Assembly: GCF_023155745.1 (NCBI RefSeq)
Contig: NZ_JAKNUS010000003.1
Location: 1-64,000, forward strand
DNA from: Microbacterium kunmingense
GTDB lineage: Bacteria > Actinomycetota > Actinomycetes > Actinomycetales > Microbacteriaceae
Length of the DNA: 64,000 bases
Direction: 5' to 3'
Below are positions 18,355 to 32,326 of this stretch, piece by piece. Numbering within the stretch: position 1 is the first letter of the stretch; each line of letters begins with the position of its first letter. The notes under the pieces are model-generated. The model saw only the letters and a program-made list of their open reading frames with translations. It searched no databases and had not been told where the DNA came from. A program made the translations under genes and the position numbers.

Positions 18355-19761
18355 TCAGCGGCGGCTGCGCAGGTCCGGAAGCAGCGCGCGCGGCGAGCGT
18401 CCGCGGATCGCGCTCACCCACACTCCGGCCCCATATGCCGCGTCGTCGAGTCGGCGCGCGAGCCCGAACCGCACCGGGTCAAGGCGCGGGCGCGTGCGGG
18501 CGAGTTCCCAGGCAGTGTCCGCGACTGCAGCCACGACCACCGCCCTGCGCACCCGGCGTGAGACGAGGCATCCAATCGCCGTCAACGGCCACCAGTGCCG
18601 CAGCAGCAGGGCGAAGCCCTGAGCGATCGCGGTCACGAGGCCGTACCCGGTGAGGCGAACGGCCAGGCGGTAGGGGTGACGCACCGCGGTGGCTCGGCGT
18701 CCGATCCGCACCATGGTCACCGCGAACAAGGCGGCTGCCACGGGAAGCGACCAGCGGCGCTGGGCCATCAACGCAACGAGCAGCGCCGCCGCCCACGGCG
18801 CTAGCGTGACCGGTGCGATGTCACGCGGATGCCGCACTGCAAGCAGATCGGCACCGGTGCCGTAGTACAGCTTGCGGCCTAGCCACGCCCGCAACGTCGC
18901 GCGGTGATCGTGCCGGACGACCGCTGCCGGCTCGTAGCGCACGCGATGGCCAGACTTGACGAGCCGCCAGACGAGGTCGACATCTTCCGCGACGCGCATC
19001 GACGCGTCGAAGCCGTCCCCGAGCGCGGTGACGCGTGCGGCGAGGCAGGCGGCGGGGAGCCACGTTACGCGGGCGCGCGGCCGCACGATCGATGCCTCGT
19101 GGCCGATATCCAGGGAGGACCTCGCGTCCTCGTAGCGCGTGATCCAGTTCGCCCTGGGCGCGTCGAAGCCGAGCACGCGCGGAGCGATCATCGCGAGGCG
19201 CGGATCGGCGAAATGTCGCAGCAGGAGCGGAATTGCGCCCGCCTCGACCACCACGTCGGAGTCCACGAACACCACGAACGGAGTCGCCACCCGAGCGAGC
19301 CCCGCGTTACGAGCGCCCGCGGGCCCAAGGTTCTCATTAAGGGTGACCAGCTCGGCGCCGTGCCGTGCCGCGACCGTGGCGACCGGGCGCGGGTCGACGG
19401 ATGCGTCGTCGACGACGATGACGCGCAATCCGGCGAGAGAGGCGAGGAGGCGGTCGAGTTGCCTCGGTCGGTCGCGGACGGGCACGACGACGGTCGCAAG
19501 CCCGGGGTCGACGTCGGGTAGCAACTCGACGACCGGGTCGGCGATGCCGGCCGCGAGGAGATGGTCGGCGAGCGTGCGGGAGACCGCATCCTTCACCGTC
19601 AGGCGGTCGCCGTGGAGGTAGGGGCGGGCACGCGGCTTCAGCGCGGAGATGCGGGTCGGTGAACCGCCGATGAGCACCGCGCCGTCGTCGACTACGCGCG
19701 TGTGCCGGTCGAGCCGCACCGTGAATCCGTCGGGCAGCACGGTACGCGGCGAAGCCGTCAC
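18355..19761 (-). CDS. mftF: MftF, mycofactocin oligosaccharide glycosyltransferase
   Basis: A 468-residue family 2 glycosyltransferase that adds glucose units to the mycofactocin precursor. The nucleotide-sugar site 'VIVVDDAS' and the metal-binding 'VFVDSDVVVE' are clear, and 'AEDVDLVWRL' is the ED motif near residue 270. Two or three hydrophobic helices follow in the last 160 residues, so it sits at the membrane. The N-terminal 80 residues ('ALKPRARPYL') are typical of MftF. The GTG start at 19761 overlaps the mftE stop by 4 bases (GTGA), so the genes are coupled. It is the last gene of the mycofactocin operon. Confidence 0.9.
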   Translation of the reverse strand: MTASPRTVLPDGFTVRLDRHTRVVDDGAVLIGGSPTRISALKPRARPYLHGDRLTVKDAVSRTLADHLLAAGIADPVVELLPDVDPGLATVVVPVRDRPRQLDRLLASLAGLRVIVVDDASVDPRPVATVAARHGAELVTLNENLGPAGARNAGLARVATPFVVFVDSDVVVEAGAIPLLLRHFADPRLAMIAPRVLGFDAPRANWITRYEDARSSLDIGHEASIVRPRARVTWLPAACLAARVTALGDGFDASMRVAEDVDLVWRLVKSGHRVRYEPAAVVRHDHRATLRAWLGRKLYYGTGADLLAVRHPRDIAPVTLAPWAAALLVALMAQRRWSLPVAAALFAVTMVRIGRRATAVRHPYRLAVRLTGYGLVTAIAQGFALLLRHWWPLTAIGCLVSRRVRRAVVVAAVADTAWELARTRPRLDPVRFGLARRLDDAAYGAGVWVSAIRGRSPRALLPDLRSRR

Positions 19762-20552
19762 GAGATCGTCCCGGCTGTGGGGTCGGATGACACGGCAACA
19801 CCACGCCCGACCTCGAGCACGACGCACCCCCGCGCGTCCACCCGGCCGAAGCGCAGCCGCGCCCAGGCCTCGGCGATCATCGCCTGGAGCAATGCCTCCC
19901 CCTCGGCGGCGGACGCCCCGTGCGGGTCGCCCAGTACCCCGTTCGGTGCGACACCGCGAACGCCCGACGCGCGCAGTTCGGGCAGGATCAGGCCGATGGG
20001 CCGCGTCTCTCCGGCCTCGAACCGGTCTGCGCGCACCCGCGAGGCGCAGAGGGCTTGCATGATCGAGGTTTCTGAGCGTCCCGCGTGCGCGTCCACGGGC
20101 ACGCCGATCCCCGCCACCGAGGCCGGATCGCAAGGGACCCAAACCGTTGATCGTCCCTCGCCGATCAGGGTCAATACCGCCGTCGAGAGTGCCTCGACGT
20201 TGCCGCCATGCCCGTTGACTAAGACCAGCCGCTCGGCCCACTCCCCCGCCGACCGACCGAGCTCGACGAGCAGCATCGTCAGCGTCTCCGTCCCGATCGA
20301 GAGCGTCCCCGGGAAGCCCCGGTGCTCGCCGCTTGCCCCGACCGCGACAGCCGGGGCCACGACGGCATCCGTGCCATCGGTGCGATACCGATCGGCGAGC
20401 GCGTCCGCGACGGCCGAGGCAATGATCGCATCGGTGTCGAGGGGCAGATGCGGTCCGTGCTGCTCGGTCGATCCGACCGGCACGAGTACGACCGGGTGTC
20501 CGACATCGGGCCACGGGCGGTCGACGAGGTGCGGGAAGCCCTGGAAGGTCAC
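19758..20552 (-). CDS. mftE: MftE, creatininase-family peptidase of mycofactocin maturation
   Basis: A 264-residue creatininase-fold metallopeptidase. After MftC has modified the C-terminus of MftA, MftE releases the Val-Tyr-derived core (AHDP). The metal ligands are seen in 'PVGSTEQHGPHLPLDTD' (Glu, His, His, Asp), 'GASGEHRGFPGT' and 'LVNGHGGN'. The length is normal. It starts 9 bases after the mftD stop and overlaps mftF by 4 bases. Confidence 0.92.
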   Translation of the reverse strand: MTFQGFPHLVDRPWPDVGHPVVLVPVGSTEQHGPHLPLDTDAIIASAVADALADRYRTDGTDAVVAPAVAVGASGEHRGFPGTLSIGTETLTMLLVELGRSAGEWAERLVLVNGHGGNVEALSTAVLTLIGEGRSTVWVPCDPASVAGIGVPVDAHAGRSETSIMQALCASRVRADRFEAGETRPIGLILPELRASGVRGVAPNGVLGDPHGASAAEGEALLQAMIAEAWARLRFGRVDARGCVVLEVGRGVAVSSDPTAGTIS

Positions 20553-20561
20553 GCGGCCGCC

Positions 20562-21902
20562 TTAGAGGTTGCCGGCGGCGACTGCATCAGTCGGCGGCTC
20601 GCCGGTGTCAGTCTCGAATGCAGCGCCGCGGGTCGTGGTCTGAGGAGTGCGCGCCGCGGGCTTGCGTGCTGCCGGCTTGCGCGCCGCGGGCTTGCGTGCT
20701 GTCGCAGCTGTCTCAGCCTCGGGACCGGCACCGAGTTCCCGCCGGAAGCCCGGGGGGATATAGAAGTCTGCCGGCGACAGCTCGGTGACCGAGCGGTGTC
20801 CCAGTCCGAGCACCGCCGAGTCGAGCCCGCCGCGGAGGACGTCGAGCACGTTCTCGACCCCCGCCTGGCCATTCGCGGCGAGGCCCCACAGGTACGCCCG
20901 ACCGATCATCACGGCGCGTGCACCCAGGGCGAGCGCCTTGGCGACATCTGACCCGCGCCGCACGCCCCCGTCGAGCAGCACCTCGACCTGCCCGCCAACC
21001 GCGTCGGCGATACCGGGCAGCATTCGGACGGACGCGGGCGTGGTGTCGAGGTTGTTGCCGCCGTGGTTCGACACCGAGATCGCGGTAACGCCGACATCGA
21101 CCGCACGCTTCGCGTCGTCGATGCGCGACACGCCCTTGAGCATGAACGGCCCGCCCCACTGCTCGCGGAGCCAGGCGACGTCGTCCCAGGTCGGCGGAGG
21201 CGTCGACATCCACTCGCCGTACGCGCCGAAGAACGTGGGCGCAGTGCCCCCGTCAGCCGGCGCGAGGTTCGGCGTCCTGAGGTCGGGCACCCACCCGGTC
21301 TTGAGGAAGTCGAACAGCCACGCGGGCTTGACGATCGCCTGAGGTGCGAACCGCATGGCGGCCATGAACGTGAGCTTGTCCGGGATCCACGGGCTTCCCC
21401 AGTCGCGCCCATGCGAGAATGACCAGTCGAGTGTGGCGATGAGGCCCTTCGCCCCGGCCGCACGCGCGCGGTCGAGCCGGTGGGCCATCGCCTCGCGTGT
21501 GCCGCTCCAGTACACCTGGAACAGCGTGTTCGGGTTCGCGGCAGCGACCGCTTCGATCGGCTTCGACGCGAACGAGCTGAGACCCATGATCGTCCCGCGG
21601 TTCGCGGCGGCGCGAGCGACCGCGACCTCGCCGTCGGGGTGAACCGCCTGTACGCCCGTCGGAGAGATGATCACGGGCAGCGAGATCGGGATGCCCATCA
21701 CAGTGGTGTCGAGTGTGCGTTCGGCATGATGCCCGGCGACGTGCGGCGCGAACTGCAGTTCGGAGAACGCCTGCTGGTTGTCCTCGATGGTCAGGCCGCG
21801 TTCGGAGCCCGCGATCAGGGCGCCGTACACCGATCTGGGCAGGCGCCGCTCGGCTCGTCGCTGCGCCACCGCCACCGTTTCAAACCAGCTGTTGCTCATC
21901 AT
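20562..21902 (-). CDS. mftD: MftD, FMN-dependent alpha-hydroxy-acid-dehydrogenase-like enzyme
   Basis: A 446-residue TIM-barrel flavoprotein of the lactate dehydrogenase/glycolate oxidase type. MftD deaminates AHDP to give the alpha-keto amide of premycofactocin, the redox-active centre. FMN and catalytic features: 'VSNHGGNNLDTTPAS' (catalytic His), 'VLLDGGVRRGSDVAKAL' and 'GARAVMIGRAYLWG'. The start 'MMSNSWFETVAVAQ' at 21902 has GGAAGG upstream. The last 60 residues are unusual: a low-complexity tail with the 5-residue unit ARKPA repeated, then an acidic end. The tail is absent from the MftD proteins I know and comes from a GC-rich DNA tandem repeat. Confidence 0.9.
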   Translation of the reverse strand: MMSNSWFETVAVAQRRAERRLPRSVYGALIAGSERGLTIEDNQQAFSELQFAPHVAGHHAERTLDTTVMGIPISLPVIISPTGVQAVHPDGEVAVARAAANRGTIMGLSSFASKPIEAVAAANPNTLFQVYWSGTREAMAHRLDRARAAGAKGLIATLDWSFSHGRDWGSPWIPDKLTFMAAMRFAPQAIVKPAWLFDFLKTGWVPDLRTPNLAPADGGTAPTFFGAYGEWMSTPPPTWDDVAWLREQWGGPFMLKGVSRIDDAKRAVDVGVTAISVSNHGGNNLDTTPASVRMLPGIADAVGGQVEVLLDGGVRRGSDVAKALALGARAVMIGRAYLWGLAANGQAGVENVLDVLRGGLDSAVLGLGHRSVTELSPADFYIPPGFRRELGAGPEAETAATARKPAARKPAARKPAARTPQTTTRGAAFETDTGEPPTDAVAAGNL

Positions 21903-21966
21903 CCGTTTCCTTCCGCGGGTGCGTTCGCCGTTGTCATCGTCTCGTTCGCTGCCGTCCGGCACCGGG

Positions 21967-22851
21967 TCATCCGCCGAACATCGCGCTCACGGCGGGGGCC
22001 ACGGCCCGGAAGTCTTCCACCACGTGCAGCGAGCCGCGGCCGAGGCGCGCGAGGTCGCGCCCGAGCTCGACGTCCCGCTCGCCGCTTGCATCGAGCAGCA
22101 CGTCGAGGCGCGGCAACCTACCCGCGAAAAGCCGCGGGTCGGGCCCGGCGTTGTGCACGCAGTCCGACAGCAGCACGACCCGGGCGTCGCGAACAGGGGC
22201 GCGCGCGAACTGCTGTGAGGCCAGCTCGAGCGGAAAGGCCACATTCGTCAGGCCTTGCGCCGGGATCCGCATGATTGACTCGAGCAGGTTCATGGGCTTC
22301 ACGGGCTGCCCGAGGTTCAAGAGAATTGCGGCATCCGACCAGAACGCGATCACCGCGAGGTCCTCGCTCACAAGCTCGCCCGCGAGGGCGCCTACGGTCG
22401 CTGCGGCCGTCGCGACCCGTTCACCTTTCATCGAGCCCGACACATCGACCGCGAGGACGACCGATCGCTTGGTGCGGATGCGGTCACGGACGATGATGTC
22501 CTCGTCCTCCGGCAGCGGACGCTCGGCGAGCACCTCGATCGTCCTGTCGAGGTCGATCTCGTCGGACCCGCCGCGATAGGGTACGCTGCCGAGCTCGCCG
22601 ATGCCGCGCCGGCTGGTCGCATCGCGCCGTGGCCGGCGCACCGACAAGCGCGCAGCGATCTGAAGTGCGCGCGCCCGGGCCACGGAGTCGGCCGCGGCAT
22701 CCGCCTCCGCCTGCACGAGACGTGCCTCCTCGTGGGTGAAGGTGGTCGCCGCGATGCCCTGCTTCGCCTTCCTCCTGGGTGCCCTCGAGTCGCCCACCGC
22801 GTTCTCGGTGCGGAAAAGCGTGCCGCCGGCGCCGGGTGTCGCATCGAACAC
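21967..22851 (-). CDS. VWA-domain protein paired with MoxR ATPase
   Basis: A 294-residue protein. The von Willebrand A domain occupies the C-terminal half, with an intact metal-ion-dependent adhesion site: 'VLAVDVSGSMKGER' (DxSxS), a downstream Thr in 'AQGLTNV' and the Asp in 'VVLLSDCVHN'. The GTG start at 22851 has GAGGAG 6 bases upstream. The same frame is open back to the moxR stop (36 codons) but has no start codon there. VWA proteins act with MoxR ATPases to insert cofactors or remodel dehydrogenases (as CoxD/CoxE do). It lies between moxR and mftD in one operon, so it probably serves a mycofactocin-dependent enzyme. Confidence 0.85.
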   Translation of the reverse strand: MFDATPGAGGTLFRTENAVGDSRAPRRKAKQGIAATTFTHEEARLVQAEADAAADSVARARALQIAARLSVRRPRRDATSRRGIGELGSVPYRGGSDEIDLDRTIEVLAERPLPEDEDIIVRDRIRTKRSVVLAVDVSGSMKGERVATAAATVGALAGELVSEDLAVIAFWSDAAILLNLGQPVKPMNLLESIMRIPAQGLTNVAFPLELASQQFARAPVRDARVVLLSDCVHNAGPDPRLFAGRLPRLDVLLDASGERDVELGRDLARLGRGSLHVVEDFRAVAPAVSAMFGG

Positions 22852-22959
22852 GGTGGGCTCCTCGTCGAGTCGTTTTGGCTTGCGCTTCAGGGGCGTTCCC
22901 TCGATCGTGCGCCGGTCGGGACGCTCGCGCTGCAGCGGTCCATCGGCGGGAACCGCTCT

Positions 22960-23910
22960 TCAGCCGGGCGCCGCTGCGGCAGGTTCGAGGATGAACCGGT
23001 CCTCCCAGATCTCGCGAAGCACTCGTTCGGGTGTCGTCTCGATCGCCTCGTCGAGGTGGATACGCCCGGAGAGCGCGACGACCATGGCGTCGAACACGAG
23101 CTCCGGATAGTCGTTGTGATCGGGCGAATGGATGCCGCGCAGCTGCGCGAGCTGTGCGGCGACGAGCACGAGATCGATCGCGCCTCGCACGCTCGATCCT
23201 TGGCGCACGTCGCGGTGCTGCCGCGTAGCGCGGGTCACCGCAACCGCGTCCTCGATGACCCGCTCACCCACGTCGTTCGCTGCCCCGGCGCGCAATGCCA
23301 CGATGCGCTCCTCACTCGGCGCATCCTGGTAATCGACTGCCAAACGATTCAACCGGTCGTGGACGCTCGTCGACAGCCGGGTCGTGCCTACGTTGTCGTA
23401 CGGGTTCATCGAGGCGATGACACGGAACGTCGGCTTCGCCCGGATGCGACCCACGCGCGGGACAGCTATCGATCGATCGGCCATGGCCGTGAGCAGCGTG
23501 TTCAGGGTGTCCTCCGGCGCCCGGTTGAACTCCTCGATGTAGAGGAAGCCGCCAGCGCGCATGGCCTCGACGAGCGGCCCAGCGACGAAGTTCTCGGCAC
23601 TGTAGTCCTCTTTCAGCACCCGGGCGGGGTTGTGGTGGCCGACGAGCTTCGCGGGCGTCAGGTCGGCGTTGCCCTCCACGAAGAGCAGCGGGATTCCCCA
23701 CTCCTCCGTGATCGCCGTGAGTATCGTCGTCTTGCTCGTGCCGGGCGGACCCTCGAGCAGAATGTCGCGCCCCGCCGCCACCGCCGCGAGCGTCAGCTCG
23801 AGCTCGCGCTCGCGGCCGACGATGCGCGCAGCGATGCGCGAACGGCTGGCCGCGAGCCGACTCGCCCCATCCTCGATTAGAGGGACCTCGTCGGTCACAA
23901 CCCCGCTCAC
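22960..23910 (-). CDS. MoxR-family AAA+ ATPase
   Basis: A 316-residue AAA+ ATPase. Walker A '[11 protein letters not shown]' lies near residue 52, Walker B '[18 protein letters not shown]' near 120, and sensor 1 is in '[19 protein letters not shown]'. MoxR proteins with VWA partners are chaperones that activate metallo- or quinoprotein dehydrogenases. The GTG start overlaps the stop of the SDR gene upstream by 3 bases (GTGA), so translation is coupled. The VWA partner is the next gene. No methanol-dehydrogenase-type client gene is seen in the window, so the client is either one of the SDRs, MftG, or encoded elsewhere. Confidence 0.88.
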
Positions 23911-24740
23911 TTCTGCATCGACCCCGCGTCGACCGGTAGCGTCACGCCAGTCACGTACCTGGACTCGTCGGAGGCGAGCCAGAGCACCGCGTTCGATATG
24001 TCGACCGGCTCGACCCAGGGAATGGGCAGCGCGTTCGTCGCCCGGAACCGTTCGCCGATCCGCTCGCGCGTGCGTTCGACCGGCTCGAGATCGGGGGCGA
24101 ACAACGCGTAGATGGCCTCGTTCTGGATCATGTCGGTGTCGACGCTCGTCGGGTGCACTGAGTTCACGCGGATCATGTCGGGCGCCAGCTCGAGAGCGAG
24201 CGTGCGCATGAGCCCGACAACCCCGTGCTTAGCCGACACGTAGTGCGCGAAGTTCGGCAAACCCTTCAGACCGGCGACCGAGCTCGTGATGATGATCGAC
24301 CCGCCGCCCGCGGCCCTGAGGTGCGGGATGGCGACCTTGCAGGTGCGCCAAACCCCCGACAGGTTGACGTCGATCATGTCTCCCCACTGCTCCTCGCTGA
24401 GCGCCTCAGTGGTCGCCGTCGAGAAGATCCCCGCATTCGCCGCCACGATGTCGAGCCGGCCGAGTTCGGCCACGCCCGCGTCGACGGCCGCACGCAGCGC
24501 CTCGACGTCGCGCACGTCAGCCGTGCCGGCAACGATGCGCCGGTCAAGCGCCTCGACCTGTCGAACCGTCTCGTCGAGGTCGGCCTGCGTCGCCATACCG
24601 TATGGCACAGTCGCGATCTGCTCGACGATGTCGACCGCGATGATGTCAGCTCCCTCTTCCGCCAGGCGGAGCGCATGACTGCGCCCCTGTCCTCGCGCCG
24701 CGCCCGTGATGAACGCGACCTTGCCGTCCAGTCGTCCCAT
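23907..24740 (-). CDS. Mycofactocin-coupled SDR oxidoreductase (copy 1)
   Basis: A 277-residue short-chain dehydrogenase. Cofactor site '[21 protein letters not shown]', then the insertion typical of mycofactocin-coupled SDRs ('[20 protein letters not shown]', where the nicotinamide cofactor is held so tightly that mycofactocin must reoxidise it). The active site is Ser ('ITSSVAG'), Tyr-x-x-x-Lys ('YVSAKHG'). The ATG at 24740 is chosen because it gives the standard start '[13 protein letters not shown]'. The open frame continues upstream without a ribosome site. Alcohol or carbonyl substrate unknown. Confidence 0.9.
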
Positions 24741-24778
24741 AGTGTGCTCCCTTCTCTGCGTTCTACAGACCGTTGCCG

Positions 24779-25615
24779 CTACTTGACATTTGCTCCGGCA
24801 TCCACCGGCAGGGCGACGCCCGTGACGTATCGCGCCTCGTCGGAGGCGAGCCAGAGCACAGCGTTCGAGATGTCGCGCGGGTCGACCCATGGGACCGGAA
24901 GTGCGTTGATGCCCCCGGCAGCCTGCTTGAAGTCCTCGACCGTCGGGTTCTCCAAATCGGGCCGGAAGAGCCTGAACGTGGCGTCGTTGTTGACCATCGG
25001 CGTGTCCACCACTGTCGGATGCACCGAGTTGACCCGGATCATGTCCGGTGCGAGTTCGAGTGCGAGGGTGCGCATCAGCCCGACGACGCCGTGCTTCGCC
25101 GCGACGTAGTGCGCGAGATTCGCGAACGCGAACAGCCCCGCGTCGGAGCTTGTGAGAATCATCGATCCGCCCTTGCCGCCCGCGCGGATGTGCGGGACGG
25201 CCGCCTTGCACGTACGCCACACACCGGAGAGGTTGATCTCCTGCATGTTGACCCACTCGTCGTCGGGGATGTCCTCGACCCTGTTGAATGTCCCCCCAAT
25301 GCCGGCGTTGGCGGCGACGATGTCGAGCCGGCCAAGTTCGGCGACGCCCTTGTCGACAACTGCCTTCAGTTGGCCGAAGTCGCGAACGTCGGCTTTCTCA
25401 GCGACGATCCGCCGGTCGAGCGCCTCCACCATCCTCACGGTCTCTGCGAGGTCCTCCTCCGTCGCAGGCGGGTAGTTGTTTTCCGGAATGGCGGCGCAGA
25501 TATCGATTGCGATGATGTCGGCGCCCTCTTCAGCAAGCCGTATCGCGTGACTGCGCCCCTGTCCTCGCGCCGCGCCCGTGATGAACGCGACCTTGCCTTC
25601 GACCCGTCCAGCCAT
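24779..25615 (-). CDS. Mycofactocin-coupled SDR oxidoreductase (copy 2)
   Basis: A 278-residue SDR closely related to its neighbours, with '[15 protein letters not shown]', the insertion '[20 protein letters not shown]', Ser in 'LTSSDAG' and 'YVAAKHG' as catalytic Tyr and Lys. It ends in '[14 protein letters not shown]'. Start at ATG 25615. It lies 38 bases upstream of copy 1. This copy and copy 1 resemble each other most ('[17 protein letters not shown]' in both), which suggests recent duplication. Confidence 0.9.
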
Positions 25616-25629
25616 AACTTCCTCTCCCT

Positions 25630-26448
25630 TTACTTCTTGTTGGTGAAGCCCGCGTCGACGGGCAGTGTGACGCCGGTGACGTACCGTGCGGCGTCGGACA
25701 CGAGCCACAGGATCGCGTTCGAGATGTCGACGGGCTCGACCATGGGCACGGGCAAGGCATTGGCCATTGCCTGGCCCATCTGGGGATCTGACTGGAGGAA
25801 TTCCTGCATGATGTCGTTGACGACCATGGGTGTGTTCACGCCGGTGGGATGGACAGTGTTGACCCTGATCGAGTGCTGAGCCAGCTGGTTGGCGTAGCTT
25901 CGCATGAGCCCGACTACGCCGTGCTTGGCGGCGGTGTAGCCGAGACCGCCGGGCGCGTCGCCGCCGATGCCATTCAGTCCCGCAGTCGAGCTTGTGATCA
26001 CAATTGCTCCGCCACGTCCGCCGTTGATCATCGACGGTTTCGCAACCTCGACGGTGTAAAAGACGCCCGTGAGGTTGACGTCGAGGACGTCCTGCCACTC
26101 CTCGGGCACCGGGTGCAGCGACAGTGGCGCGATGCCCGCATTGGCAAGCACGATGTCGACCGCTCCCAGTTCGGCGACGCCCGCGTCGAACGCGGCCTGC
26201 AGCGCGTCCCGGTCCCGCACGTCAGCTTGCACGGCGTGGATGCGGCGATCGAGAGCCTCGACCTGCTGCACCGTCTCGGCAAGATCATCGGGCGTCGACA
26301 TCGGGTACGGGACCGACTCGATCTGAGCGCAGATATCAACTGCGATGATATCGGCGCCCTCCTGCGCGAGTCGGATTGCGTGCGAACGTCCTTGCCCGCG
26401 TGCGGCTCCGGTGATGAAGGCGACCTTGCCTTCGAGCTGACCAGCCAT
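25630..26448 (-). CDS. Mycofactocin-coupled SDR oxidoreductase (copy 3)
   Basis: A 272-residue SDR with '[21 protein letters not shown]', the insertion '[20 protein letters not shown]', Ser in 'ITSSTAG' and Tyr-Lys in 'YTAAKHG'. The loop after the active site ('[12 protein letters not shown]') is longer than in copies 1 and 2, so the substrate pocket should differ. It is 14 bases from copy 2 and in the same operon. Confidence 0.9.
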
Positions 26449-26503
26449 GTTGCTCCGTTCTGTTGGTTTTGCCGATGCTGGGTACGGATAGCTGATTGAG
26501 TGG

Positions 26504-27364
26504 CTACTTCACTGGGTCGGCGTTGTAGCCGGGCATGAGCAGGTGTCCGGCGTCGACGGGGATAGAAACCCCCGTGACCGAGGACGCGAGGTCTGAGTTG
26601 AGGTACAGCGCCGCGTCGGCGATGCGTTGCGGGTCGAGGAATCCGTTGCCTTTGAGTGCGTGGAACGAGTACCCGGCCTCCAACATGTCGGCTTCGTTGC
26701 CCTCGCCTGCGGATTTGCCCGACATCATGTCCCACGCGCCCTGCCAGCTTGTCATCGGGGTGAGGATCGCGCCGGGGTGGATGGCGTTCACGCGGATGCC
26801 GTGCCGGGCGTACTCGAGCGCCAGCGTCTTCATAATGCCCACGACGCCGAACTTCGCTGCGCAGTAATGCACGTAGTTGACGCCCGGCTCGAGTCCGTTG
26901 ATCGAACTGGTCATCACGATCGAGCCGCCACCTCGCTCCATCATGTGCGGCAGCACGGCCTTGGCTGACTTCCAGACCCCCGTGAGGTTCACGGCGATCA
27001 TGTCGTCCCACATCTCGTCGGTCATCTCGTGAGCCGGCGCGAGCGAGAAGATGCCCGCGTTGGCGATGAGGATGTCGATACGCCCGAACTCGGCAATTCC
27101 CGTCGCGACCGCCCCGTCGAGGTCCGCCTGCCTCCTTACGTCACCGTTCACGGCGACGATTCGCCGGTCAAGCGCTTCGACCTGCTTCACGGTCTCGTCG
27201 AAGTCCTCCTGCGTGGCCATGGGATAGGCGACCGTCTCGATCTGCTCGAGCGTGTCAATGATGACGACGTCGGCGCCTTCACGTGCGCACGTAAGCGCGT
27301 GCGCACGCCCCTGGCCTCGCGAGCCTCCCGTAACGAGCGCAACCCTGCCGTCGAGCATTCCCAT
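26504..27364 (-). CDS. Mycofactocin-coupled SDR oxidoreductase (copy 4)
   Basis: A 286-residue SDR, the most divergent of the four: '[21 protein letters not shown]', insertion '[20 protein letters not shown]', Ser in 'MTSSING', Tyr-Lys in 'YCAAKFG'. The C-terminal third is longer and ends '[12 protein letters not shown]'. It is first of the SDR series, 155 bases after the mftC stop. A GGAGGAACC ribosome site precedes the ATG. Confidence 0.9.
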
Positions 27365-27519
27365 GATGGTTCCTCCTGTTCAAGGGCGTGCCGCTCCCAC
27401 GCCACGGTGGCCGCACGACCACTGGCCGCAACGTCGCGGCCAGTTCGGGCGAGTCGGGTCTCACGCGAGATCGGGGCGGGTGCCTCCTTATTGACATTGA
27501 CGCCGGGCGGCGCCGATCT

Positions 27520-28794
27520 TCATTGGGTCATCGGATGGTGCGAGGTGAAGCCCGCGAGCGGATCCTCGGCGCACGCGCTCACGGGCGGCGCCGCGAGGTC
27601 CTCGCGCCGGGTGAGAGTGAGGCGCACGGGGCCCACGCCGGTGCGCGGACGAGGCGGTGAGGTGCGATGCGAGTGGTCGCCGGAGTGCCTCGGCAGCCCT
27701 GAGTCGCCTGCTCGCTGTGCGAGAAGCTGCTCGCCGTAACCCTGCACGCACTCGGGGTCGGGACCATCGAGCGGCAGGCCTGTGAAGAACTTCGCGGCCA
27801 TGCACCCGCCCTTGCAGGTGTCGAAGAACTGGCACGAGCTGCACGCGCCGCCAGACTGCGGCGAACGCAGTTCGGCGAATAGCGACGATTCGCGCCACAC
27901 CTTAGAGAATCCACCCTCGTCGCGGACGTTGCCGGCGAGGAACTCGTCATGGATGGCGAAGGGGCACGCGTACACGTCCCCGACGGGATCGATGAGGCAG
28001 ACGACGCGCCCAGCGCCGCAGAGGTTGAGCCCCGGGAGAGCTTGACCGTACGCCGAGAGGTGGAAGAACGAGTCGCCCGTGAGCACGTCGCCGCCGTGCG
28101 CGACGAGCCAGTCGTAGAGTTCGCGCTGCTGCGGCGGCGTGGGGTGCAATTCGTCCCACACGTCGGCGCCGCGGCCCGACGGGCGCAGCCGAGTGAGGCG
28201 TAGCTGGGCGCCGTAGCGATCGGCGATGGCCTTGAACTCGTCAAGCTGCGGGATGTTCTGTCTCGTGCAGACCACGGACATCTTGAAGGAACGCATGCCG
28301 GCGTCCGACAGGTTCTGCATCGCACGCAACGCGGTCTCGTAGGAGCGCGGCCCGCGGATATGGTCGTTGACCTCGGCGGTGGCACCGTCAAGCGAGATCT
28401 GCACGTCGACGTAGTCGTTCCCGGCGAGGCGCCGGGCGATCTCGGGCGTGATCTTCACGCCGTTCGTCGAGAACTTCACGCCCACGTTGTGTTCCGTGGC
28501 GTAGTCGATCAGCTCCCAGAAGTCGCTGCGCACCGTCGGTTCGCCGCCGCCGATATTCACATAGAACACCTGCATGCGCTCGAGTTCGTCGATGACGGCC
28601 TTGCACTCCTGGGTGCTCAGCTCGCGCGGGTCGCGCCGGCCGCTGCTCGACAGGCAGTGTACGCACGAGAGGTTGCATGCGTACGTGAGCTCCCAGGTCA
28701 GGCAGATGGGTGCGTCGAGGCCGAGCTCGAAGTGGTCGGCCAGGCGCATGGACCGCGGCGGCCCGGCGACGACAGGCGCCTCCACGATGCTCAC
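27520..28794 (-). CDS. mftC: MftC, radical SAM enzyme of mycofactocin biosynthesis
   Basis: A 424-residue radical SAM/SPASM protein. It decarboxylates the C-terminal Tyr of MftA and cross-links it to Val. The SAM cluster motif is C40-x3-C44-x2-C47 ('YACNLSCVHCL'). The SPASM auxiliary-cluster cysteines are in 'LCGAGRVVC', 'VYACPFA', 'GGACSSCQFFDTCKGGC' and 'PECVQG'. The GTG start at 28794 overlaps the mftB stop by 4 bases (GTGA). A longer frame to 28890 only overlaps mftB. The Pro/Arg-rich 60-residue tail is like that of other MftC proteins. Confidence 0.95.
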   Translation of the reverse strand: MSIVEAPVVAGPPRSMRLADHFELGLDAPICLTWELTYACNLSCVHCLSSSGRRDPRELSTQECKAVIDELERMQVFYVNIGGGEPTVRSDFWELIDYATEHNVGVKFSTNGVKITPEIARRLAGNDYVDVQISLDGATAEVNDHIRGPRSYETALRAMQNLSDAGMRSFKMSVVCTRQNIPQLDEFKAIADRYGAQLRLTRLRPSGRGADVWDELHPTPPQQRELYDWLVAHGGDVLTGDSFFHLSAYGQALPGLNLCGAGRVVCLIDPVGDVYACPFAIHDEFLAGNVRDEGGFSKVWRESSLFAELRSPQSGGACSSCQFFDTCKGGCMAAKFFTGLPLDGPDPECVQGYGEQLLAQRAGDSGLPRHSGDHSHRTSPPRPRTGVGPVRLTLTRREDLAAPPVSACAEDPLAGFTSHHPMTQ

Positions 28795-29066
28795 GGCGTC
28801 CGCTCCATGAGCATCTGCGACTCGGCGAGGGTGCCAAGCGCCCCGAGGTACCGCGGCAGGTGCGCGTCCGCGACGCCGGCAGCCTCGCACGCGGCACGCG
28901 CGGACGCGGCATCCGGCAGTGCCCGCACAACCTCGAGCAGCGTGAGATCCTTGAGGAAGGACAGCTTGCGCGTGCCGAAGTGGTAGAGCAGCGCACCGAA
29001 CGGCTCGGGCCGAACCGAGACCTGGGGGTGCAGCTGCCAGGCGGACTCAGGGGCGACGGCGGTCAT
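28791..29066 (-). CDS. mftB: MftB, peptide-recognition chaperone of mycofactocin biosynthesis
   Basis: A 91-residue PqqD-like RRE protein that binds the MftA leader and presents it to MftC. Seen: 'WQLHPQVSVRPEPFGALLYHFGTRKLSFL', the usual MftB strand-turn core (residues about 10-38), followed by a helical end. It starts 7 bases after the mftA stop and overlaps mftC by 4 bases. Confidence 0.92.
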   Translation of the reverse strand: MTAVAPESAWQLHPQVSVRPEPFGALLYHFGTRKLSFLKDLTLLEVVRALPDAASARAACEAAGVADAHLPRYLGALGTLAESQMLMERTP

Positions 29067-29073
29067 GGGAATG

Positions 29074-29184
29074 TTAGTAGACGCCGCACATACCGTCGAT
29101 CGAAATTTCCTCGACGAGCGACTCCGTCTCGATCACCTCGTCGACATCACCCGTTGGAACGACGAGGTCTTTACTTCGACTCAT
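29074..29184 (-). CDS. mftA: MftA, mycofactocin precursor peptide
   Basis: A 36-residue ribosomal peptide whose end 'EISIDGMCGVY' is the invariant mycofactocin core: the last two residues, Val and Tyr, become the cofactor. The leader is acidic ('DVDEVIETESLVEE'). The ATG at 29184 has GAGGAG 6 bases upstream; the longer open frame to 29307 crosses the operator and has no ribosome site. It is the first gene of the operon. Confidence 0.96.
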   Translation of the reverse strand: MSRSKDLVVPTGDVDEVIETESLVEEISIDGMCGVY

Positions 29185-29202
29185 GGGATGCTCCTCATGT
29201 GC

Positions 29203-29222
29203 GATCACCGTCATTGGTGATC
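29203..29222. promoter_or_regulatory. MftR operator candidate: 7-base inverted repeat
   Basis: GATCACC-GTCATT-GGTGATC, with perfect 7-base arms, in the 89-base gap between mftA and mftR. It overlaps the predicted -35 of mftR and covers the expected start region of mftA. MftR is a TetR protein known in mycobacteria to regulate its own cluster, so binding here fits. Confidence 0.65.
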
Positions 29223-29242
29223 TACTCGGTTGGCCCGATACT
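29214..29242 (+). promoter_or_regulatory. Promoter of mftR-mftG
   Basis: TTGGTG (29214-29219), 17-base spacer, GATACT (29237-29242). The -35 hexamer is inside the right half of the inverted repeat, which predicts autorepression. It also argues against the ATG at 29244 as the mftR start, since it would fall at the end of the -10 element. Confidence 0.5.
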
Positions 29243-29273
29243 AATGACACCCGGTGCCGTTGGGAAGGGGGTA

Positions 29274-29939
29274 GTGGCCTTGGTCCTGTCCCAGGGGGAT
29301 GAATCACTGCCGCGCGCTCGTGTCGGCCGCTCGCCGTCGACCACTCATGCGCAGATCAGTCACGTCGCCCTCGAGCTGTTCATGGAGCGCGGCTTCGATG
29401 CCACGACGGTCGATGAGATCGCCCGAGCGGCCGGCATCGGGCGGCGAACGTTCTTCCGCTACTTCCCCTCGAAGAATGACGTACCGTGGGGCGAGTTCGA
29501 CGAGATGCTCGACCGCATGGGCACGCATCTCGCCTCCCTCCCCGACACGATCCCGATTATGGAGCAGCTACGACGCGCGATCATCGAGTTCAATCGCGTG
29601 CCGGAATCGGAATCGGAGTACCACCGGCGGCGCATGGAGCTGCTCCTCAACGTGCCGACGCTCCTCGCGCACTCAACGCTCCGCTATCGATCATGGCGTG
29701 GGGTGATCGCCGACCACGTCGGGCGTCGCCTGGATCTGCCATCGAGCGACCTGATCCCGCAGACCATCGCGTGGACCTGCCTCGGGGTATGCCTCGCAGC
29801 GTACGAACAGTGGCTGGCCAACCCCGAGCGCATCCTGCTGGACCTGCTCGACGAGGCGCTGCTCATGATCGACGAGCGCATCGACACGAGAGTCGTCCAG
29901 GCACACCGCAGCCATAGGGGAGCCGATGACCAGCGCTGA
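29274..29939 (+). CDS. mftR: MftR, TetR-family regulator of mycofactocin genes
   Basis: A 221-residue TetR protein, divergent from mftA. Helix-turn-helix at about residues 25-70: 'HVALELFMERGFDATTVDEI' then 'AGIGRRTFFRYFPSKNDVPWGEF', the FRYFPSKND turn being characteristic of MftR. In mycobacteria MftR responds to long-chain acyl-CoA. The GTG at 29274 is preferred (purine-rich GGGAAGGGGG upstream); an ATG at 29244 would add 10 residues but lies in the promoter. It overlaps mftG by 14 bases. Confidence 0.88.
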   Translation: MALVLSQGDESLPRARVGRSPSTTHAQISHVALELFMERGFDATTVDEIARAAGIGRRTFFRYFPSKNDVPWGEFDEMLDRMGTHLASLPDTIPIMEQLRRAIIEFNRVPESESEYHRRRMELLLNVPTLLAHSTLRYRSWRGVIADHVGRRLDLPSSDLIPQTIAWTCLGVCLAAYEQWLANPERILLDLLDEALLMIDERIDTRVVQAHRSHRGADDQR

Positions 29940-31656
29940 GGCGACGCGCCCCACTGCAACCCGCACCACGGTGGTGGTCGGCGCGGGCGCCGCGGGGGCG
30001 GCCCTTGCCGCGAGGCTCAGCGAAGATCCCGAGCACCGCGTCATCCTGCTCGAGGCGGGCCCTGTACCCCGCTCTCCCGCCGAGTTCCCGCCCGAGCTGC
30101 TGGACGCGTCAACAGTGCAGGGCGCGATGCCGGGGCATCCGGCGAACTGGTCCTACCTCGGCAACCTCACGCCCGATCTGCCGTACACGATCGCGCGCGG
30201 TCGCATTATTGGCGGCTCGTCGACAATTAACGGAGGGTACTTCGTGCGCGCGCGCCCGGAAGACTTCGCCCGGTGGTCCGTTGCCGCGGGTCCGGACTGG
30301 GGCTATGAGAGCGTACTGCCCGTGCTCCGCCATCTCGAGCACGACCTCGACCTCGGGTCTGGAGTGTTCCACGGTGATGCCGGGCCGATGCCCGTGCGGA
30401 GGGCGGTCCAGTCGAACCCCGCGGCTCGGGCGTTCACGGCCGCGGCCCTTGAACTCGGCTTCGTCGCCGAGCCCGACAAGAACGCACCCGGAGCTCCCGG
30501 TGTCGGCCCCGTGCCGCAGAACGTCGTCGACGGCGTGCGCATCAACACCGGTCTGGCCTACTTGTCGCCCGCGCGAGACCGTCCGAATCTCCAGGTGATC
30601 GGACGATGCCGCGTCCTACGCGTCGTGTTCGAGGGCACACGCGCGGTGGGGGTCGAGGTGGCGGAGACGGGAGGCATGTCTGCGGCATCGGGTCGGAGTG
30701 GTGCGCGCGTCGCATCCATCCTGGCCAACGAATCCGGGGCGCGTGTGATCCCTGCCGACGAGGTGGTGCTCTGCGCCGGCGGAATCGGAACGCCGCAGCT
30801 GTTGCTCGTCTCTGGCGTCGGGCCGGCCCAGCAACTGCGCGACCACGGCGTGCGGGTGGTGCACGACTCCCCCGGCGTCGGCCGGGCATTCACCGATCAC
30901 CCCGACATCGCCGTGGGCTGGCGAGCCCCGCGCAATCTCATGGATCCGCGCACGCCCGAGACGTTCACGACCGCGCTCAACTTCGTATCACCCGGAGGTG
31001 ACGCCGCGGGAGACCTGGAGATCATGGTCTCAGTCAAAAGCATGAACCACCTGCTGACGGGGTCGACGAGTGCGCTGGCCGGCGGTGCGCGATCAGCGCT
31101 GCGGCATCCACTCGCCACTCATCGGTCGCTGCGCGGCTTGTCGCTCACGCGAGTGCGGGAACAGGCACTGCACGGGCGCGACCTCGTGCTCCTCGTCGGG
31201 CTGCAGCGGGAGGAATCACGCGGCTCGATCACCCTCGCGTCGGCAGACCCGACGGCGAACCCCCGCATCGACTACCGGTACCTCTCGACCGCGCGCGACC
31301 GGGAGCGTATGCGCTTCGGCATTCGCACAGCCGTGGCGCTGCTACACACCCGCGCGTTCGCGCAGCTGTTCGAGGGGCTCACCGAGCTCGATGAGGCAAC
31401 GCTCGACCACGATAGGGCACTCGACGCGTGGATGCTCACCCACCTCGGCACCGCGATCCATCTCTGCGGCAGCGCCCCGATGGGGCCGTCACGCGACCCG
31501 TTCGCTGTCGTCGACGGGTTTGCGCGCGTTCGGGGCGTCACGAACCTCCGTCTCGCTGACACCTCGATCCTTCCCGATACTCCTTCGCGGGGGCCGGCCG
31601 CAACAGCGGTATTGGTTGGGGAACTCGTCGCGCGCTTCATCCGTCGCGGCGACTGA
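29926..31656 (+). CDS. mftG: MftG, GMC-family flavin oxidoreductase
   Basis: A 576-residue GMC oxidoreductase. The FAD site 'VVVGAGAAGAALAARLSE' is at residues 16-33, the GMC signatures 'GRIIGGSSTINGG' and 'GGIGTPQLLLVSGVG' are present, and the C-terminal active site includes 'GTAIHLCGSAPMG' and 'PDTPSRGPAATAV'. MftG passes electrons from reduced mycofactocin towards the respiratory chain. The ATG at 29926 lies inside the end of mftR, so the two are coupled. Confidence 0.92.
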   Translation: MTSAEATRPTATRTTVVVGAGAAGAALAARLSEDPEHRVILLEAGPVPRSPAEFPPELLDASTVQGAMPGHPANWSYLGNLTPDLPYTIARGRIIGGSSTINGGYFVRARPEDFARWSVAAGPDWGYESVLPVLRHLEHDLDLGSGVFHGDAGPMPVRRAVQSNPAARAFTAAALELGFVAEPDKNAPGAPGVGPVPQNVVDGVRINTGLAYLSPARDRPNLQVIGRCRVLRVVFEGTRAVGVEVAETGGMSAASGRSGARVASILANESGARVIPADEVVLCAGGIGTPQLLLVSGVGPAQQLRDHGVRVVHDSPGVGRAFTDHPDIAVGWRAPRNLMDPRTPETFTTALNFVSPGGDAAGDLEIMVSVKSMNHLLTGSTSALAGGARSALRHPLATHRSLRGLSLTRVREQALHGRDLVLLVGLQREESRGSITLASADPTANPRIDYRYLSTARDRERMRFGIRTAVALLHTRAFAQLFEGLTELDEATLDHDRALDAWMLTHLGTAIHLCGSAPMGPSRDPFAVVDGFARVRGVTNLRLADTSILPDTPSRGPAATAVLVGELVARFIRRGD

Positions 31657-31693
31657 TAGGCGCGCCCCTTCTGAAGACGAAAGGATCCTGGTC

Positions 31694-32326
31694 ATGCATG
31701 AAGTCGCTCGGGGGGTCTACCAGCTGCATGGGCAGCCAGCGCACCTGTTCAACGTCTACCTCATCGAGAATCTCCTCGTTGACGCGGGCACGGCTTGGGC
31801 GCGGCGGCGAATCTTGCGGCAGGTCGCGGGTCGAGATCTTAAGGCTCACGTAGTGACTCACGCGCACTCGGATCATTTCGGGTCCAGCAGAGCAATCTGC
31901 GATGCCTTGTCGATCCCGTTGTGGGCTGGCGCAGCGGACCGGAGCGCCATCCAGGCGGGCACGCCGCAGATGAGGGCAGGGGTCTTGTCGAGCCTTGTGG
32001 GCAGGATGGTTCCCCGACCTCCGGCGTGCGACGTTCAACGAGCGCTCAGCGAGGGCGATGAGATAGCGGGATTTACCGTTCTAGAAGTACCCGGCCACAC
32101 CCCGGGGCATATCGCGTTGTGGCGAGAGCAGGACCGAGTTCTTCTGTGCGGCGACGTCTACTCCCACCTCGGAAGAGTGACGCGGCCGCCCACGTTGTTC
32201 ACGTTGGATCCGCGGATGAACGACGAGTCTCGCCGACGACTGGCGGAGCTCCGACCGCGACTCGTCTTGTTTGGGCACGGACGACCGCTCAGGCTCGGGC
32301 CCGCCGAGCGACTGCCAGTTCAGTAG
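31694..32326 (+). CDS. Metallo-beta-lactamase-fold hydrolase
   Basis: A 210-residue MBL-fold enzyme with the zinc motif 'VTHAHSDHFG' (HxHxDH, residues about 57-62), a further His in 'VPGHTPGH', the Asp in 'LLCGDVYSH' and the last His in 'LVLFGHG'. AAAGGA precedes the ATG at 31694; the open frame continues upstream through mftG in another phase and is ignored. It starts 37 bases after mftG on the same strand. The substrate is unknown. A thioester or lactone linked to the alcohol metabolism of the cluster would fit. Confidence 0.82.
   Translation: MHEVARGVYQLHGQPAHLFNVYLIENLLVDAGTAWARRRILRQVAGRDLKAHVVTHAHSDHFGSSRAICDALSIPLWAGAADRSAIQAGTPQMRAGVLSSLVGRMVPRPPACDVQRALSEGDEIAGFTVLEVPGHTPGHIALWREQDRVLLCGDVYSHLGRVTRPPTLFTLDPRMNDESRRRLAELRPRLVLFGHGRPLRLGPAERLPVQ

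Follow-up and report, generated by a model that had tools for sequence, protein, structure and literature searches.

The 64-kb window analysed here, at the start of contig C22 (423,071 bp) in the draft genome of Microbacterium kunmingense (3.50 Mb, 28 contigs), contains a complete gene cluster for the redox cofactor mycofactocin (MFT; mft genes) amid the genes of an integrative and conjugative element (ICE). The evidence makes it very probable that an ICE of about 65 kb, integrated at a tRNA-Pro gene in this Microbacterium, carries a nearly self-contained mft module of Agromyces type in a cargo slot. Positions in the window are prefixed w and those on other contigs carry the contig name.

Several hallmarks of an ICE are present: an integrase at a tRNA gene with flanking direct repeats, together with a relaxase and a coupling protein. 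The tyrosine integrase (w57987-59207, minus strand; PF00589, 2.6e-19) has 89-92% identical counterparts in three other genomes (G101, G086 and G080), and is accompanied by an excisionase-like HTH_17 protein (w59179-59418, minus strand; PF12728, 5.3e-11). The integration site is a tRNA-Pro(ggg) gene identified by ARAGORN (w59599-59674, minus strand), whose 40-bp 3' end forms the right attachment site, attR (w59595-59634, plus strand). An exact copy, attL, identical over the 40 bp, is located on a second contig, C2 (C2:143642-143681), 4.6 kb before the end of that contig. The relaxase is of the TrwC type with a helicase domain (w3872-7369, minus strand; PF08751, 5.8e-88; AAA_30), which we take to be MOBF. 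The type IV coupling protein (w49250-51208, plus strand; PF12696, PF02534) belongs to a backbone module at w33010-52248, delimited by alignment to G086 and by Pfam matches, that also encodes a hydrolase, a MAB_1171c-like protein, ArdC, Prim-Pol, ParB, an M23 peptidase, proteins resembling those of a type IV secretion system (T4SS) and single-stranded DNA-binding protein. The original prediction had described mobile-element genes on both sides of the mft cluster and had suggested carriage on a conjugative element. Both statements are borne out, with the relaxase to the left of mft, and the backbone module and integrase to the right.

The mft genes were called with NCBIfam profile models at their curated cut-offs, and all eight (mftA-mftG and mftR) exceed them, in agreement with the complete set that had been claimed. 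The order on the minus strand is mftA-mftB-mftC-SDR4-SDR3-SDR2-SDR1-MoxR-VWA-mftD-mftE-mftF, where SDR denotes a short-chain dehydrogenase/reductase, and mftR and mftG are divergent on the plus strand. The precursor peptide MftA (w29074-29184; TIGR03969, 45.4 bits, cut-off 25) has 36 amino acids and the C-terminus ...IDGMCGVY, so the canonical core with a Val-Tyr end is indeed found. The other minus-strand mft genes encode the chaperone MftB (w28791-29066; TIGR03967, 110.4 bits, cut-off 33), the radical SAM maturase MftC (w27520-28794; TIGR03962, 650.4 bits, cut-off 265), the pre-mycofactocin synthase MftD (w20562-21902; TIGR03966, 681.7 bits, cut-off 470.85), the peptidase MftE (w19758-20552; TIGR03964, 272.2 bits, cut-off 172) and the glycosyltransferase MftF (w18355-19740; TIGR03965, 411.5 bits, cut-off 280). 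On the plus strand are the regulator gene mftR (w29274-29939; TIGR03968, 268 bits, cut-off 224.9) and mftG for the mycofactocin dehydrogenase (w29926-31656; TIGR03970, 450.1 bits, cut-off 387.45). Across the whole genome, mftA and mftC each gave one match.

Six genes, all on the minus strand, separate mftC from mftD. Four encode mycofactocin-coupled SDRs of TIGR03971 (cut-off 300 bits), namely SDR 4 (w26504-27358; 348.2 bits), SDR 3 (w25630-26448; 397.2 bits), SDR 2 (w24779-25615; 408.2 bits) and SDR 1 (w23907-24740; 421.9 bits). Among solved structures, carveol dehydrogenases score best for SDR 2, with 5ej2 at the top, and another carveol dehydrogenase, 3t7c, is best for SDR 4. The remaining two genes encode a MoxR/CbbQ/NorQ-like AAA+ ATPase (w22960-23898; PF07728, 4.1e-24; AAA_3, 5.8e-15; GvpN and MadB models below cut-off) and a CoxE-like VWA-domain protein (w21967-22851; PF13519, 7e-10; PF05762 VWA_CoxE, 8.6e-8) with a DxSxS MIDAS motif, DVSGS at residue 136.

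Relatives of the integrase (E <= 1e-90) occur in 17 of 149 genomes of the genus, its own included, and one of these genomes, G086, contains the same ICE at tRNA-Pro. Regions w3503-7454, w33010-52248 and w56353-59739 match it at 80.8%, 89.7% and 85.5% identity, the second as one collinear nucleotide alignment of 19.2 kb, and G086 has its own attL region (31022-31202, 89% to C2:143642-143822) and its own attR at 108027. The cargo between the equivalents of w7454 and w33010 (L240, G086:C42:55200-73556) is different. Where mft is found here, G086 has copper, cytochrome-c and P-type ATPase genes, the ten frames searched including PCu(A)C and CopC copper proteins, two P-type ATPases, ResB, CtaG, a DsbD-type protein and an ArsR-type regulator. 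No MftC above cut-off was detected in G086, which is also absent from the 31 Microbacterium genomes with an mft match. Since the same ICE carries different cargo between the same edges, mft occupies a replaceable slot, here cargo slot 1 at w7455-33009, with homology to G086 ending at w7454 and restarting at w33010. These edges also bear on the suggestion that the linkage of mft to conjugation genes is an assembly artefact. A draft genome in 28 contigs gives some ground for caution; however, the relaxase, mft, T4SS, integrase and tRNA genes are all on one 423-kb contig, and both slot edges agree with a sister element bearing other cargo, which leaves this explanation with very little credence.

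Further relatives are more fragmentary or more distant. The right part of the ICE is shared with G080 up to the end of the G080 contig. G101 has a decayed copy in which the integrase, the left end and a TrwC fragment remain and no T4SS match was found, and G042 contains a more distant relative. On contig G042:C12 (L092-L095), a tRNA copy by the right flank matches over 61 nt only and is not called as a tRNA, with the full tRNA-Pro 64 kb away; judged from sequence, related ICEs seem to be arrayed in tandem at this tRNA-Pro. Direct or inverted repeats pointing to transposition were also considered at the borders of the mft cluster and of slot 1 and were rejected, as the compared edges have no 11-mer in common and the short repeats inside them seemed to be chance matches. 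Slot 1 additionally contains, at w7848-12988, genes for a GH3 glycosidase, a PAP2 protein, an MFS transporter and a TetR regulator, with third-position GC of 0.92-0.95, above that of most ICE backbone genes; these are perhaps separate, later cargo.

The left end of the element is on C2, and the two contigs are joined through an insertion sequence (IS). C2 terminates in TAGGGCGTGTCTC..., and the window opens with the end of a transposase gene and continues with GAGACACGCCCTA. The 3' end of this IS5-type transposase gene and the right inverted repeat were read from the sequence at w1-126 (plus strand), the other IS end being at the end of C2, and CTAG is present at both outer ends of the IS halves. 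We assume the IS5-type family for these halves and, if the IS is of usual size, the unread middle is presumably about 0.7 kb. A frame at w110-586 (minus strand) contains the N-terminal part of an S8-peptidase gene that is split by the IS, and the C-terminal part is on C2 (L010, 14254-16152). The window part aligns to residues 27-146, and the C2 part to residues 167-779, of one intact S8 peptidase from a Sphingobium plasmid. A Bradyrhizobium homologue gave alignments only for the C2 part of the peptidase and for the neighbouring ATPase, and a search of E. coli gave no match for the S8 gene and is uninformative. Because one IS splits one S8-peptidase gene across both contigs, C2 and the window contig adjoin. 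The element then extends from C2:143642 to the end of C2, through the IS middle and along window positions 1-59634, a length of about 64.3 kb plus the unread IS middle, or about 65 kb. The partner gene of the S8 peptidase encodes an AAA ATPase (w596-1594, minus strand; PF00004). This pair on the left side of the ICE recurs on Bradyrhizobium and Sphingobium plasmids, and a relaxase gene adjoins the Sphingobium pair.

An IS within a gene near the left end raises the possibility that the element arrived as an ICE but is now an immobile genomic island, with mft in effect chromosomal, and G101 demonstrates that such elements decay. Against this, the interrupted S8-peptidase gene is an accessory gene and no transfer gene is affected; the reading frames for the integrase, excisionase, relaxase and coupling protein are open; the 19-kb module retains the same order as in G086; and no difference separates attL from attR over their 40 bp. 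A fixed island is considered unlikely, although it is the strongest of the alternatives.

Joining the C2 flank, the 40-bp core and the right flank in the window gives a predicted empty site. It aligns without interruption to intact tRNA-Pro loci in G019 (183 nt, 88%) and G020 (202 nt, 80%), in both cases through the hairpin beside the 3' end of tRNA-Pro. Fifteen loci were compared, and no single alignment spanning the core was found in the other 13. The empty tRNA-Pro site proposed as a check is thus seen, as a predicted attB continuous with native loci, in two of the 15. In G011 and G050, a piece consisting of flank plus core is located 4-5 kb away from tRNA-Pro, as if, from the sequence, another island occupies the site. 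The right flank of tRNA-Pro was matched in 57 of 59 genus genomes sampled, and in G008, G010 and G027 tRNA-Pro is 3.7-5 kb from the ArsR and glyoxalase genes that also occur in the C2 flank. The old yellow enzyme (OYE) gene to the left of attL was tried and rejected as a marker of the empty site, as ten OYE loci in relatives, some cut by contig ends, are without a tRNA. Extra full or partial copies of tRNA-Pro were observed 2-26 kb from the gene in G007 (L096-L097), G017 (L098), G011 (L102), G050 (L100) and G006 (L109), and from such sequences tRNA-Pro looks like a hotspot for islands in the genus.

The affinity of the cargo lies outside the host genus. The closest named clusters are from Agromyces, with MftC identities of 88-90% and the same order of genes; three of them (L127, L128 and L129) were compared, L129 having more SDRs and L128 giving best-match identities of 59-92% over the cluster. 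In their flanks, up to 10 kb from mftC, the relaxase, coupling protein and integrase of the window ICE gave no match. DNA homology was traced with blastn in place of tblastx, which gave noise on the Agromyces flanks. For L127 and L128 it begins at w18350 and ends at 31656-31664, its limits coinciding with the outer ends of mftF and mftG. The original prediction gave the cluster as 18355-32326, of which the mft part stands. Its right edge adds a gene for a metallo-beta-lactamase-fold protein (PF00753; w31694-32326) downstream of mftG and beyond the Agromyces homology.

A tree of MftC only, with 54 rows (49 of the 80 named mft loci examined, four further loci of the genus and the window), groups the window with Agromyces at 90/77. 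Because MftC alone gave just this support, nine genes of the cluster were concatenated, genes shorter than half length being coded as gaps and loci retaining only a small part of the cluster being excluded. In trees of 21 and 22 rows, the latter including six additional Microbacterium clusters (one of them G602), three Agromyces clusters and the window form a single group, in each case with an SH-aLRT of 100. Constraint tests point in the same direction. Forcing all Microbacterium rows together, the window included, costs 397.5 log units in the 21-row tree (7 rows; approximately unbiased test, p-AU 2.3e-62) and 604.8 in the 22-row tree (13 rows; p-AU 4.3e-33). As one clade without the window, Microbacterium costs 14.9 log units and is not rejected (13 rows, L134 included; p-AU 0.056). 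Since a Microbacterium clade is rejected with the window and not without it, the window is the misplaced member. A tree constrained to keep the window beside the nearest Microbacterium group, a group picked after the 22-row tree had been inspected, costs 176.8 and is rejected (p-AU 7.8e-57). The proposed comparison of gene and species trees, carried out with mft genes only, therefore places the window with the three Agromyces clusters at full support.

These results also speak to the idea that mft was already an ancestral part of the host chromosome and that the ICE acquired it locally. The mft-region match in 31 of 366 Microbacterium genomes and the same gene order in G602, with one extra SDR, are what might be expected from this idea; however, the window stays with Agromyces after G602 and the five other clusters are added, the constraint that keeps it with the nearest Microbacterium group is rejected while a Microbacterium clade without it is not, and the genome yielded no further copy of mft. 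With G602 falling outside the window's group, local capture is improbable. The sequences suggest instead that the source of the cargo is either Agromyces or a sister lineage of the Agromyces mft, and the tree favours neither.

The occurrence of mft in Microbacterium and Microbacteriaceae is sporadic. MftC is above cut-off in nine of 149 Microbacterium genomes, an mft DNA match is present in 31 of 366, its own included, and MftD is above cut-off in 35 of 398 Microbacteriaceae genomes, in 24 of 85 genera. The description of mft as uncommon in the family is thus a fair one, although the rarity is not extreme. The surroundings of mft were examined in 29 of the 30 other mft-bearing Microbacterium genomes (all except G722). 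In 21 of them, among which G090 is counted with 7 kb and 29 kb, the sequence beyond mft reaches 24-35 kb to one side or both; in G706, G689, G108, G003, G131, G675, G727 and G728 it is at most about 10 kb on both sides, some with almost nothing. No relaxase, coupling protein, Prim-Pol, ArdC, integrase or T4SS gene of the ICE was found in these flanks (E <= 1e-10), and an ICE arranged differently and lying beyond them could escape notice. The sole matches to backbone proteins are partial ones to the M23 peptidase at 39-41% in G574 and G643, a widespread fold, and a DprA-like protein 29 kb from mft in G602. No tRNA-Pro was found near mft in any of the 26 genomes scanned, G108, G003 and G131 being outside the scan. 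Similarly, the 80 named mft loci have no genes of the window ICE in their flanks, which reach a median of 7.5 and 5.3 kb beyond mft. The original prediction named, as the finding that would speak against it, mft at the same chromosomal place in strains without the conjugation genes, and this was not seen in the 29 genomes within their limited flanks. In one of them, G090 (L121-L122; genome completeness 68), mftC, mftD, mftF, mftG and mftR match in several pieces, as if the cluster were decaying or poorly sequenced.

The content of the module gives further indications of its function. All four TIGR03971 proteins above cut-off in the genome are on the ICE, and no TIGR03989 protein above cut-off was found in the genome. 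From these counts, both the cofactor and most recognisable SDR users of the host seem to depend on the ICE, as far as these two families represent them. The TIGR03971 SDRs appear to keep non-exchangeable NAD and to require an external redox partner, as passages of PMC5264612 describe, and parts of PMC11778925 report that MftG connects MFT to respiration.

Within the 80 named loci, in-cluster SDRs occur with MoxR in 15, SDRs alone in one, MoxR alone in two and neither in 62, so that the two are found together in 15 of the 18 loci having either. The thresholds for co-occurrence were set by the analyst and, because the sequences are related, the Fisher p of 3e-13 should not be read as a true probability. 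A similar division is observed in the 29 other Microbacterium clusters, with MoxR and SDRs at 50% identity or more in 13 and neither in 16, some of the latter being short contigs (G131, G675 and G689). Compared with solved structures, the MoxR-type ATPase matches midasin best and then CbbQ/NorQ. AAA+ activases of the CbbQ/NorQ type work with VWA partners, and by this analogy the simplest guess is that the MoxR/VWA pair may be an activase or assembly factor for the SDRs. Nothing on an AAA+/VWA pair with mycofactocin was found in the literature searched; the lone match for mycofactocin and MoxR concerns, by its title, prophages of Mycobacterium chelonae.

Taken together, these features suggest a way in which the element may work. 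The tyrosine integrase would have inserted the ICE into the 3' end of tRNA-Pro(ggg). From the gene content, it could leave by the action of the integrase and excisionase and then circularise, after which the TrwC-type relaxase would nick the circle, and the coupling protein and T4SS of the element would pass the DNA to another cell. The mft module would travel in its cargo slot between the relaxase and the ArdC/Prim-Pol module. If the roles assigned in the MFT literature apply here, MftA-F would make the cofactor under regulation by MftR, and MftG would re-oxidise MFT towards the respiratory chain. The four nicotinoprotein SDRs would be expected to oxidise alcohols and pass the electrons to MFT, while the CbbQ/NorQ-like AAA+ ATPase and its VWA partner would probably service the SDRs. 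Since makers, users and recycler are in one module, a recipient would gain all three in one event. A broader proposal is that mft spreads among genera of Microbacteriaceae as a portable redox cassette (cofactor, SDRs, MftG and the AAA+/VWA pair) in an ICE slot, the pair being a new functional part of SDR-type mft systems. This proposal is tentative, and we place it somewhat below an even chance.

Several observations weigh against the reading of a mobile, nearly self-contained module of Agromyces type. The element is split over two contigs with the IS middle unread, and the N-terminal match of the S8 peptidase that helps to join them is modest (26% identity, E 4.7e-7) and was obtained with one of two homologues. 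The left chromosomal flank differs in relatives, the ten OYE loci having no tRNA within up to 1.5 kb. The T4SS genes besides the coupling protein belong to a conserved module and match Pfam weakly (TrbL, 0.0094; VirB4-like AAA_10, 0.0048), so that competence for conjugation is a prediction. In addition, a fifth SDR at C4:104617, which could also be a client, scores 291.6 bits against the cut-off of 300, so that the label of a self-contained module rests on the cut-off. With regard to origin, MftC alone supports the Agromyces grouping at no higher than 90/77, the nine-gene trees are quick ones calculated without bootstrap, and the order within the window-Agromyces group is unsupported (18-20). 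The window branch is the longest of the four in this group (0.18-0.19), and from these last two points the donor may lie outside the sampled Agromyces, and the transfer may be an older one.

The components of this system have known counterparts. The mft clusters of Actinobacteria, as parts of PMC3023750 describe them, share mftA-F, mftR, mftG and TIGR03971 SDRs with the window, where by comparison the SDRs and the AAA+/VWA pair are between mftC and mftD and the location is on an ICE. The sporadic distribution of mycofactocin was remarked on in 2011 in the same source (PMC3023750, in part), which also includes a plasmid-borne example, pHTUR01 of Haloterrigena turkmenica. In the PLSDB database, mft was found in 12 plasmid records, seven of them from Streptomyces. 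Plasmid-borne mft is likewise on a separate, potentially mobile replicon; 10 of the 12 plasmids are typed as non-mobilizable and two as mobilizable and, unlike the window element, they are not tRNA-integrated ICEs. No near DNA relative of the ICE backbone module was found among PLSDB plasmids (one 54-base match), and one Microbacterium plasmid encodes a 70% relative of the coupling protein. The window element shares with tRNA-integrated TrwC-type ICEs the tyrosine integrase, excisionase, relaxase, coupling protein and att repeats at the tRNA 3' end, and differs from them in that the cargo is a redox-cofactor pathway. ICEs with metabolic cargo are known. A precedent for mft on an ICE was not found in the literature searched, most subscription papers being outside the search. 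Known, too, are mft clusters and plasmid-borne mft; their combination with an ICE was not seen in print within that search.

The element described here provides a concrete vehicle for mft: its ends are defined, its empty site and an mft-free sister element are seen in other genomes, and the tree points to a source in another genus. It offers one concrete way for a redox-cofactor pathway to jump between bacteria. If the ICE transfers, it would represent a natural, single-step gain of a cofactor together with its users, and the benefit of mycofactocin to a naive host would become directly testable. Should the tentative proposal of a portable cassette prove true, a single conjugation event would equip a naive host with a second redox economy in working order.

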